Origin: Mycobacteriales bacterium | GTDB lineage: Bacteria > Actinomycetota > Actinomycetes > Mycobacteriales > QHCD01 | Direction of reading: 5' to 3' | Assembly (NCBI GenBank): GCA_036497565.1 | Contig: DASXJE010000148.1 | Location: 1-41,641, forward strand | DNA: 41,641 nt | In this document: positions 15,420 to 41,641 of the stretch, piece after piece | Layout: the number at the start of each line of letters is the position of its first letter | Position numbering within the stretch: the first letter of the stretch is position 1 | Notes under the pieces: generated by a model | The model's input: only the letters and a program-made list of their open reading frames with translations | What the model was told of the DNA's origin: nothing | Database searches by the model: none | Made by a program: the position numbers and the translations under genes

Positions 15420-15634
15420 GACCGTGGCGTTGATCCGGCCATCACCGGTGAGCCTCCGGAAGAACGGGCGCCGCTGAGCGAGCGGCGCCTCAGTAGAACC
15501 GGGCGGGTCCGGCCCGTCATAGCCGGCGACGAGCGGGCGATCGGCCTCCGGGCGGATCGCCAAGCGGGGTGGTACCGCGGGGCCCGTGCCTCGTCCCTGC
15601 ACTGTGGTGGAGGTGACGAGGAAGGGAGCGAGCG
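15420..15634 (+). promoter_or_regulatory. T-box leader of ileS (translational, tRNA-Ile)
   Basis: The T-box sequence GGGTGGTACCGCGG is at 15567-15580; its TGGT can pair with the ACCA end of tRNA-Ile. A very short stem I, CCGG-CCATCA-CCGG (15435-15448), holds an ATC isoleucine specifier at 15441-15443, as in actinobacterial ileS T-boxes. A further perfect hairpin, GGCGCCGCT with AGCGGCGCC (15467-15489), lies between. Downstream, CCTCGTC (15589-15595) pairs with GACGAGG (15615-15621), which overlaps the Shine-Dalgarno GGAAGGGAG (15620-15628). There is no terminator with a T-tract. Uncharged tRNA should therefore open the ribosome-binding site, so control is of translation. Confidence 0.95.
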
Positions 15635-27750: not shown

Positions 27751-27756
27751 CCACGT

Positions 27757-27839
27757 GCTGACGCGGGGTGCCCTGTCCCCAGGGCTGAGAACAGACCCGT
27801 CGAACCTGCTCTAGTTCGCGCTAGCGGAGGGACGTCACC
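27757..27839 (+). promoter_or_regulatory. TPP riboswitch (THI element)
   Basis: The conserved thi-box core is present: GGGGTGCC (27764-27771), CTGAGA (27785-27790), ACCCGTCGAACCTG (27795-27808), then a CTAG-TTCGCG-CTAG hairpin, GCGGAGGGA (27824-27832). P1 is formed by TGACG (27759-27763) and CGTCA (27833-27837). The Shine-Dalgarno of thiM, GGAGGGA (27826-27832), is part of the conserved 3' side of the aptamer, and no terminator follows. Binding of thiamine pyrophosphate should therefore hide the ribosome-binding site directly. Confidence 0.96.
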
Positions 27840-28655
27840 GTGGCCGATGCTGCGACCGTGCTGCCCGGTTCCCTGGTGGCCGCCGACCTGGCCGCCGTAC
27901 GCCTGCAGAATCCGCTCACCCAGTGCATCACCAACACGGTGGTGACCGGCTTCACCGCCAACACGCTGCTCGCGGTCGGGGCCTCGCCGGCAATGGTGGA
28001 GGCGGTCGAGGAGGCCGGCGAGTTCGCCGCCGTCGCCGACGCGCTACTGGTCAATCTCGGGACCTTGTCGGCGGCCCAGGTCGCCGGCATCCGGGCCGCG
28101 GTCGACGGCGCCACGACGGCCGGTACGCCGTGGGTCCTCGACCCGGTCGCCGTCGGCGGGCTGCGATTCCGCACCGGCTTCGCGGTCGAGCTGCTCGACC
28201 GTCGGCCCACCGTGGTGCGGGGCAATGCGTCGGAGATCATGAGCCTCGCCGGAGCAGGTGGGGTGGCCGGCAGGGGCGTCGACTCGCGGGCCGACTCCGG
28301 GGAGGCGCTCGATGCCGCCCGGTCTCTCGCCGCCGCGCGCCGGTGCGTGGTGGCGGTGAGTGGCGTGGTCGACTACGTGACCGACGGCGACCGCGTGATC
28401 GCCGTGACCGGCGGGCACCCGCTGATGACCCGGGTCACCGGGGTGGGCTGCGCGCTCGGCGCGCTGCTGGCCGCCTTCCTTGCCGTCGACCCGGACCCCG
28501 TGTCGGCGAGCGTCGCCGCGTCGACCGTGCTCGCCGCCGCGGGTGAGGCGGCCGCGGAGCGCGCAGCCGGACCCGGTTCGTTCGCCACCGCACTGCTCGA
28601 CCAGCTCCACCTCGTCGACCCCGACGACCTCGCCGCCCGCAGGGGCGTGTCGTGA
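27840..28655 (+). CDS. thiM: Hydroxyethylthiazole kinase
   Basis: Phosphorylates the thiazole moiety of thiamine for salvage; 271 aa. The family pattern includes NPLTQCITNTVVTGFTANT near 24-42, the LDPVAVGGL segment, RGNASEI, and the late GVGCALGALLAAF with the catalytic-site cysteine. The GTG at 27840 lies 7 bases after the Shine-Dalgarno embedded in the TPP riboswitch. The stop overlaps thiE (GTGA). It is the first gene of thiM-thiE-thiD-tenA. Confidence 0.96.
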   Translation: MADAATVLPGSLVAADLAAVRLQNPLTQCITNTVVTGFTANTLLAVGASPAMVEAVEEAGEFAAVADALLVNLGTLSAAQVAGIRAAVDGATTAGTPWVLDPVAVGGLRFRTGFAVELLDRRPTVVRGNASEIMSLAGAGGVAGRGVDSRADSGEALDAARSLAAARRCVVAVSGVVDYVTDGDRVIAVTGGHPLMTRVTGVGCALGALLAAFLAVDPDPVSASVAASTVLAAAGEAAAERAAGPGSFATALLDQLHLVDPDDLAARRGVS

Positions 28656-39725: not shown

Positions 39726-40357
39726 CCGGCGACCGTCGGGTCGTGCTGTGGCGACACGGACAGACCCGATGGAATGTCGAACACCGCTTCCAGGGCAGCA
39801 CCGACATCGCACTCGACGAGGTCGGCCGCGAGCAGGCGGTGCGCGCGGCCAAGCTCCTGGCCGGGCTGCGGCCCGACGCGATCATCTGCTCCGACCTGAG
39901 CCGGGCCACCGAGACCGCGGCGGAGCTGGCGAAACTGACCGGGCTGCCGGTGGCCACCGACCCGCGGCTGCGGGAGCGTTCGGGCGGCCTGTGGGAGGGC
40001 CTCACCGGCACCGAGATCCGGCAGCGTTACCCCGAGGAGTGGGCCCGCTGGGACCCGCCGCAGGGCGAGGCCGAGGTCGACGTCGCCGCGCGGGTGGTCG
40101 CTGCGGTGCAGGAGGCCATCGTGGGCCTGCCCGCCGGGGCTACCCTCGTGGTGGCGAGCCACGGCGGCGCGATCCGCGCCGGGATGGCGGCGATGCTGGG
40201 CCTCGACCCGGCGACCTGGGACCGGCTCGGCCCGCTGGCCAACTGTGCGTGGTCGGTCGCCGGGGAGGCGCCGGCGGGATGGCGGCTGACCGGCTGGCGC
40301 CTGCTCGAGCACAACGCCGGCACGCTGCCCGAGCCGGTGCTGAGCGACGACAGATAG
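39722..40357 (+). CDS. Histidine phosphatase family protein (phosphoglycerate-mutase-like)
   Basis: Phosphoesterase that works through a phospho-histidine; 211 aa if started at the CTG. The catalytic RHG is at 11-13 (VVLWRHGQTRWN), a conserved CSDLSRATETA follows, and the second histidine is in VVASHGGAIRAG. The start is unclear: the first beta strand requires a start before GTG 39743, and no ATG, GTG or TTG fits between the rsfS stop and that point. CTG 39722, which overlaps the stop as CTGA, is the best-placed candidate. The open frame upstream lies inside rsfS. Substrate unknown; members hydrolyse phosphosugars or phosphoserine-type esters. Confidence 0.85.
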   Translation: MTGDRRVVLWRHGQTRWNVEHRFQGSTDIALDEVGREQAVRAAKLLAGLRPDAIICSDLSRATETAAELAKLTGLPVATDPRLRERSGGLWEGLTGTEIRQRYPEEWARWDPPQGEAEVDVAARVVAAVQEAIVGLPAGATLVVASHGGAIRAGMAAMLGLDPATWDRLGPLANCAWSVAGEAPAGWRLTGWRLLEHNAGTLPEPVLSDDR

Positions 40358-40375
40358 CCACACCGGGAGTTGCAG

Positions 40376-40479
40376 CAGTCGACGCCTACACCTGGGCCAA
40401 GACCGCCCTGATCCAGCGGCTGGTCGACCGGGCCCGCGACGACCGCGGGCTGCCCAGAGTCGATGTATGGGAGGACTAG
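40376..40479 (+). pseudogene. Possible decayed coding remnant before leuS
   Basis: The frame ending in the TAG at 40477-40479 reads VDAYTWAKTALIQRLVDRAR and on to PRVDVWED, with GC-rich third positions over most of its length, like real genes here. It has no ATG, GTG or TTG in frame after the phosphatase stop. It may be the remainder of a lost gene or a small gene with a rare start. I do not recognise the family. Confidence 0.3.
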
Positions 40480-40480
40480 C

Positions 40481-40486
40481 GATACT
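40481..40486 (+). promoter_or_regulatory. Putative -10 hexamer of the leuS leader
   Basis: GATACT (or the overlapping TACTAT at 40483-40488) lies 6-8 bases before the GTG of the leader peptide, so the leader would be leaderless itself. No clear -35 box is seen. Confidence 0.4.
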
Positions 40487-40494
40487 ATGAGCGG

Positions 40495-40536
40495 GTGATC
40501 ACAGTAATTCGCCTGCTCCTTATCGGGCCGCGCTGA
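40495..40536 (+). CDS. leuS leader peptide
   Basis: A 13-codon open frame from GTG to TGA reads [13 protein letters not shown]. Three consecutive leucine codons, CTG CTC CTT, sit in the middle, with three Ile and two Val codons around them; CTT, ATT and GTA are rare in this GC-rich genome. It is followed 26 bases later by an intrinsic terminator and then leuS. This is the layout of a transcription attenuator in which ribosome stalling at Leu codons favours readthrough. The call rests on the codon pattern plus the terminator. Confidence 0.85.
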
Positions 40537-40561
40537 CCGGCGATATTCCGGCAGTGCGGCG

Positions 40562-40588
40562 AGCCCTTGCGACAGCAGGGGCTTTTTT
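40562..40588 (+). terminator. Attenuator terminator upstream of leuS
   Basis: AGCCCTTGC (40562-40570) and GCAGGGGCT (40575-40583) form a 9-bp stem with one G-U pair and a GACA loop, followed by TTTTTT (40583-40588). It is the only classic hairpin with a T-tract in the window, placed between the leader peptide and leuS. GGGCCGC (40525-40531) can pair with GCGGC (40556-40560) and GCCC (40563-40566), a possible antiterminator. Confidence 0.85.
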
Positions 40589-40633
40589 CGTGGCATTTCT
40601 GCCCCCGAAGCACCCCGACGAGGAGCCCACACC

Positions 40634-41641
40634 ATGACCAGCACCCCGCAGGTGCCGCCGTACCGGTACACCGCCGCGATGGCGGACCGGATCGAGACGG
40701 CGTGGCAGGACAGATGGGCGCGGGAGGAGACCTTCGCCGCGCCCGACCCGGTCGGGCCGAGGTCGAAGGGCTTCGACCGGGTGGCCGACCGGCCCAAGCT
40801 GTACGTGATGGACATGTTCCCCTACCCGTCCGGGGCGGGTCTGCACGTCGGGCACCCGTTGGGGTACATCGGCACCGACGTCTACGCGCGCTACGCCCGC
40901 ATGACCGGGCACAACGTGCTGCACACCATGGGTTTCGACGCGTTCGGGCTGCCCGCCGAACAGCGTGCGGTCGAGACCGGCCAGCACCCGCGGGTGTCAA
41001 CGTACGCGAACATCGACATCGCCCTGCGCCAGCTACGCCGGCTGGGCCTGGGCCACGACGAGCGGCGCCGGGTCAACACCACCGACCCGGAGTTCTACCG
41101 GTGGACGCAGTGGATCTTCCTGCAGATCTTCAACTCCTGGTACGACACCCACGCCGACAAGGCCCGGCCGATCGCCGAGCTGATCGAGGAACTAGACGCC
41201 GGCAGCCGCGAGCCGGCTGAGGGCACGAACGAGACCGGCCGGCCCTGGGCCGAGCTGTCCGACGTCGAGAAGCGGCGCGTCGTCGACAACCACCGGCTGG
41301 CCTACCGCGCCGAGGCGATGGTCAACTGGGCGCCCGGGCTGGGCACGGTGGTGGCCAACGAAGAGGTCATCGACGGGCGCAGCGAGCGCGGCAACTTCCC
41401 GGTGTTCCGCAAGCCGCTGATGCAATGGATGATGCGCATCACCGCGTACGCCGACCGATTGCTGGCCGACCTGGACCAGCTGGACTGGCCGGACAAGGTG
41501 CGCACCATGCAGCGCAACTGGATCGGCCGGTCGAGCGGTGCGCACATCGCGTTCCCGACCCCGGTAGGTCCGCTGGACGTGTTCACCACCCGTCCGGACA
41601 CGGTGTTCGGCGCCACCTACATGGTGGTGGCGCCGGAGCAC
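40634..41641 (+). CDS. leuS: Leucyl-tRNA synthetase (N-terminal part, cut by the window)
   Basis: Charges tRNA-Leu; 336 codons are visible and the gene continues past the window end. HIGH is HVGH at 71-74, preceded by [10 protein letters not shown]. The segment [26 protein letters not shown] is typical of actinobacterial LeuS. The visible part ends within the CP1 editing domain, at [19 protein letters not shown] lies beyond the window. The ATG follows GAGGAG. Expression should depend on the leader-peptide attenuator just upstream. Confidence 0.97.

Follow-up and report, generated by a model that had tools for sequence, protein, structure and literature searches.

Leucine-rich leaders have been described upstream of leuS in Streptomyces. 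The 2005 study of Seliverstov predicted classical leuS attenuators in Streptomyces avermitilis and Streptomyces coelicolor, and the figure in that paper marks an antiterminator hairpin (PMC1262725). RNA sequencing of Streptomyces lividans TK24 placed a leaderless leader peptide, LeuL2 (MRAVRLLLSEPR), upstream of leuS, followed by a hairpin and a run of uridines (PMC8079986). Related leaders precede the biosynthetic gene ilvB (ilvBNC) of Corynebacterium, Mycobacterium, and Streptomyces, where branched-chain amino acid (BCAA) codons include the rare control codons CUU and GUA (PMC11857589, PMC13236596, and PMC1262725), antiterminator and terminator hairpins are adjacent, and the 5′ untranslated region is short or absent in several cases. 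For this group, mutation or reporter experiments with ilvB of Corynebacterium glutamicum and Mycobacterium tuberculosis support attenuation by a BCAA leader, and in C. glutamicum ilvBNC the two adjacent hairpins overlap by three bases, with mutational support (PMC11857589). PMC1262725 also cites a mutation of the control codons in the ilvB leader of S. coelicolor that had no effect; a leader of similar appearance may therefore fail to act in the classical way. The LEU element of actinobacterial leuA likewise has a leader of Leu codons, but it contains a pseudoknot and no terminator. In Escherichia coli, the trp, leu, and pheST attenuators combine a run of control codons, hairpins, and an intrinsic terminator, and pheST is also a tRNA synthetase operon. 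These E. coli systems use an ordinary leader led by a Shine-Dalgarno (SD) sequence and mutually exclusive hairpins, unlike the probably leaderless element described here.

Here, we analyzed a 41,641-nucleotide stretch of DNA from a Mycobacteriales bacterium (contig DASXJE010000148.1 of assembly GCA_036497565.1; the whole stretch is called the window), whose source genome is a bin with 4.4% contamination. The element upstream of leuS in the window belongs to the known Streptomyces leuS attenuator family. It shares with leuL2/leuS the target gene, a leader of 12 to 13 codons (probably leaderless in the window) with three consecutive Leu codons followed by xxPR and a stop codon, and a hairpin plus U-tract terminator; it differs in its GTG start, its extra Val and Ile codons (GTA and ATT), and its host lineage. 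For Streptomyces, descriptions of precisely this kind of leuS attenuation date back to 2005. The switch is thus sound yet mostly ordinary, similar ones having already been described in Streptomyces.

All features of the element lie on the forward strand. The window contains the 5′ part of leuS (40634 to 41641, with ATG at 40634), which runs off its end; the product is up to 77% identical to proteins of relatives, and this is a genuine leucyl-tRNA synthetase gene. Its SD sequence, GAGGAG, occupies 40620 to 40625. Upstream, sequence and relatives together delineate a 13-codon leader open reading frame (ORF) of the leuL type at 40495 to 40536 (GTG ATC ACA GTA ATT CGC CTG CTC CTT ATC GGG CCG CGC TGA). 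As a preliminary description of this DNA had pointed out, 8 of the first 10 codons specify Val, Ile, or Leu, provided that the initiator GTG is counted as Val, and CTT, ATT, and GTA are rare: in the genes of the window they make up 2.1% of Leu, 0.8% of Ile, and 3.0% of Val codons, respectively. From the relatives and the codon counts, we take the control codons to be CTG CTC CTT (Leu-Leu-Leu, 40513 to 40521), with the rare CTT last. The −10-like hexamer that had been noticed ahead of the GTG is TACTAT (40483 to 40488), of the form TANNNT, and it ends 6 nt before the start codon. With this gap, transcription should begin at or beside the start codon, so that the leader probably lacks a 5′ untranslated region.

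An intrinsic terminator lies between the leader and leuS. Terminator scanning and folding identified hairpin B, GAGCCCUUGC-GACA-GCAGGGGCUU with U6 (40561 to 40588), as the sole terminator-like site in the 1.8 kb scanned. The earlier reading of a terminator hairpin with six T after the leader agrees with this; we count a stem of 10 pairs (40561 to 40584), of which the two outer ones are A-U and G-U, a GACA loop, and the six T at 40583 to 40588. The RNA from 40495 to 40633, whose folding had been suggested as a check, is stable (−70.6 kcal/mol; z = −6.2; no shuffled sequence that low), and the segment from 40522 to 40588 reaches −43.7 kcal/mol, compared to −25.4 kcal/mol (standard deviation 3.0) in shuffles. 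Past the U tract, a YCCG motif occurs within 3 to 6 nt in 48 of 79 loci (L026, L034, and L091, for example); the background rate, taken over all positions of 22-nt windows, is 26%.

We compared the region upstream of leuS across actinobacteria. With 80 loci from a genome collection and the matches found by searching 61 genomes, most of them from the same order, the upstream scan covered 111 LeuS-related loci. Contig ends truncate a few of these, which made them unscorable, so the leuS counts are lower bounds. A leader was scored where a start codon was followed, after a few codons, by three Leu codons and then by 1 to 6 further codons and a stop; at least 58 of the 111 loci have one. All 58 of these leaders, which were chosen without regard to the hexamer, have TANNNT 4 to 8 nt ahead of the start codon, a motif found at ∼0.3% of positions elsewhere in the same upstream regions. 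Allowing two Leu codons raised the count to at least 82 loci (a set chosen with the hexamer), in which the hexamer gap is 6 or 7 nt and the Leu run ends with CTT in 74 and with CTC in 8. The leader reads MTAPSRLLLPGPR in the one genome of the same family (L090), VRRALLLEWPC in a Jatrophihabitans bin (L007), and VRDYGHLLLPGPR in a Pseudonocardiales bin (L009), and two Streptomyces loci (L070 and L085) encode the same peptide as LeuL2 of S. lividans. The upstream scan found no recognizable leader at several Pseudonocardia, mycobacterial, Gordonia, Corynebacterium, and other loci.

In many genera, the leader, a first hairpin (hairpin A), and the terminator stand in the same order upstream of leuS. 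At the level of sequence, these comparisons confirm that the leucine-rich leader and terminator form a real element: the preliminary description had proposed a Leu-codon leader and intrinsic terminator before leuS, and both are kept in close and distant relatives, in place of the absence from close relatives that it had named as evidence against the idea. A chance short ORF lying ahead of the terminator of the upstream histidine-phosphatase gene could in principle produce such an arrangement, since that gene ends at 40357 and terminators after genes are common. Against it, dozens of genera retain the whole set of hexamer, leader, codon run, hairpin A, and terminator together, making this explanation extremely improbable.

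Two observations concern duplicate leuS copies. Genome G262 has two diverged leuS genes (L152 and L153), which match the query at 65% and 39% identity; both have a three-Leu leader and a terminator of their own. A second leuS fragment in the genome of the window (L002, contig C311), 74% identical and with its start lost at the contig end, may be contamination.

Hairpin A, the proposed antiterminator, was located by covariation and folding at 40527 to 40560 (GCCGCGCUG / CAGUGCGGC plus CCGG/CCGG). Its 5′ arm shares sequence with the final leader codons and the stop codon, and the leader arm CCG[C/T]GCTGA pairs with a downstream CAGC[G/A]CGG. Close to the stop codon, the leaders of relatives have either Arg (CGC) or Cys (TGC), and the opposite arm changes to match, giving 20 U-A and 18 C-G pairs. 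The covariation score of hairpin A was reached in 0 of 500 shuffles. Paired cells (81.5%) and double changes (22) are by far most frequent in its true register, although a register slid by +3 scores slightly higher in covariation. For helix B, the covariation count is blurred in alignment A1, where two clades are shifted by one base. A hairpin that overlaps the leader end, as in classical attenuators, is thus backed by covariation. The leader-end motif LLL-x-x-P-[R/C]-stop resembles a peptide motif. However, in L078 (MRSSLLLS) and L109 (MAAYGLLLT) the stop codon is shifted ahead of the arm and the arm is retained, which, together with the compensated C/T choice, indicates that the constraint after the Leu run acts on the RNA. 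The geometry is also fixed: among the 72 loci with both hairpins resolved, hairpin A starts 5 nt past the Leu run in 65 and is separated from hairpin B by 0 nt in 61. The loop of hairpin A varies widely. Sequence and comparison together show the leader, its codon run, the promoter position, both hairpins, and their fixed order and spacing. The covariation and the 0-nt spacing were worked out in the present analysis, while an antiterminator hairpin is already marked in the 2005 figure. The attenuator predicted in two Streptomyces species in 2005 is thus widespread in actinomycetes, now with covariation support.

We propose, with a probability of about 85%, that the element ties leuS to the supply of charged tRNA-Leu through ribosome-mediated attenuation of transcription, and that it would probably raise synthetase output under leucine shortage. 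RNA polymerase would start at the GTG, and a 70S ribosome would initiate straight on the 5′ end. With ample Leu-tRNA, the ribosome would reach the UGA at 40534 to 40536 and sit on the 5′ arm of A, so that terminator B would form and most transcripts would stop near 40588. With scarce Leu-tRNA, the ribosome would stall within CUG-CUC-CUU, leaving hairpin A free to fold before B, and the abutting A would hinder proper closure of B inside the polymerase, resulting in read-through into leuS. The direction of control, leaderless translation in this host, and, above all, the manner in which A opposes B are what we infer.

Does hairpin A exclude the terminator by base pairing? The preliminary description had paired 40525 to 40531 with 40556 to 40566, which would take up part of the 5′ arm of the terminator, as in classical attenuators with exclusive structures. 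The complementarity exists: this pairing is the outer part of the hairpin at 40527 to 40560 plus a three-pair extension across a bulge. A related overlap of adjacent hairpins at a boundary trinucleotide has mutational support in C. glutamicum ilvBNC (PMC11857589). However, the GCC overlap found there is not conserved for leuS, and the extension lies outside the minimum free energy (MFE) structure of the window. When partial transcripts of 79 loci were folded, at least two extra pairs from hairpin A or its flank into the terminator arm were possible in only 19, and in the Micromonospora type the flanking GAG is mismatched to the terminator CCC. The terminator is present in the MFE structure both with free RNA and with a ribosome placed on Leu codon 1, 2, or 3 or on the stop codon (ribosome edges assumed ∼15 nt from the P site). 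Since they abut directly, A and B are able to coexist at equilibrium. Given this coexistence, the 0-nt spacer, and the 19 of 79 relatives, we found no mutual exclusion of A and the terminator by base pairing; the complementarity reported earlier stands, but its antiterminator role is not a conserved feature. Exclusive pairing is therefore an unlikely mode of action. Pairing of the 3′ arm of A with the terminator loop (CRCGG:CUGYG), considered separately, showed no matching R-Y covariation by eye.

These results raise the question of how two hairpins that are able to coexist work as a switch. In our reading, hairpin A would act by direct juxtaposition: with a stable helix reaching right up to the terminator's first base, the basal pairs of the terminator should close less readily in the RNA exit channel. 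It is also conceivable, though improbable, that hairpin A is mainly a pause hairpin, holding RNA polymerase until the ribosome comes without opposing the terminator. The terminator loop has a conserved pyrimidine-G step (UGYG in most relatives) ∼10 to 12 nt downstream of hairpin A, which is the geometry of hairpin-stabilized pauses. However, pausing would leave nothing to stop termination in starvation, as the terminator arm showed no conserved alternative partner among the relatives.

Another alternative is translational control, in which the Leu run masks the SD sequence of leuS until a ribosome frees it, as proposed for the LEU element of leuA. The MFE structure of the window does pair GCUCCUU (40515 to 40521, in the Leu codons) with GAGGAGC (40620 to 40626, in the leuS SD region), a duplex of −17.8 kcal/mol. 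Across 73 loci, however, we detected no conserved pairing of this kind, as its strength did not exceed that of controls in which the Leu codons were synonymous or the SD regions swapped; masking by the Leu run was rejected as a general mechanism at leuS on this ground. Translational control would also leave the conserved terminator unexplained, and we regard it as distinctly unlikely.

To ask where else the two-hairpin design occurs, we used a covariance model of hairpins A and B (R1). It scored the window element at 66 bits and found nothing else convincing in that genome; counting any target gene and not leuS alone, it matched in 148 of 297 genomes of the class at an E value of ≤0.01. Among 20 R1 loci examined, mostly weaker or second matches, 4 were leuS, and most others preceded acetolactate synthase (ilvB) or citramalate synthase (cimA) genes. 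These assignments are consistent with scores above the cut-off of TIGR00977 for four of four cimA products tested and of TIGR00118 for three of three ilvB products tested. At cimA, the leaders have runs of Ile codons, as in VLHASIIIA of L167. Direct inspection of 31 cimA genes, including that of the window's own genome, found an Ile-run leader in 25, the last Ile codon being ATT in 18 and the A-B spacer being 0 nt in 22. The genome of the window carries leuS, ilvB, and cimA versions of the design: on contig C18, VHHHVIIST precedes cimA (L172, 1392 to 1490) and VLRCVIVLS, read by eye, precedes ilvB (L173, 1350 to 1440).

We tentatively suggest, as a possibility somewhat short of even odds, that leuS, ilvB, and cimA share one stereotyped actinomycete BCAA attenuator module, made up of a leaderless leader, consecutive control codons of which the last is a rare NTT codon, a hairpin at the end of the leader, and a terminator abutting at 0 nt, with the first hairpin opposing the terminator by juxtaposition and not by exclusive pairing, and with an Ile-run branch at cimA that would be new to the literature. 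Our search, which covered mainly openly available papers, found no paper on a cimA attenuator. The same design before cimA suggests a shared logic of BCAA supply that could be usable in producer strains.

Further observations were made at individual cimA and ilvB loci. The cimA genes at L172, L154, L156, L161, L163 to L165, L167, L170, L171, and L174 to L203 are preceded by an Ile-run leader that is likely leaderless, by a hairpin located at its stop codon or beyond it, and by an abutting terminator. Most cimA promoters have a TGTG-GC-like stretch before the −10 element instead of a plain TANNNT. The ilvB leader at L173 is followed by two nearly abutting hairpins and a U tract, the known ilvB attenuator type.

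Searches against Rfam gave no T-box match at 40360 to 40660, even at E values up to 5; the only matches to known families at the leader fell far below gathering scores, and Rfam holds no model for the leuS leader element. Elsewhere in the window, a subthreshold T-box match at 15421 to 15601 (24.7 bits, with a gathering score of 93; E = 0.0026) lies upstream of an ileS-like gene. The T-box core GGTGGTACCGCGG is present there and a terminator-like site is missing, in keeping with reports of translational T-boxes at ileS in actinobacteria. An ordinary TPP riboswitch (Rfam RF00059; 63 bits) occupies 27754 to 27849, directly ahead of a thiM-like gene at ∼27840.
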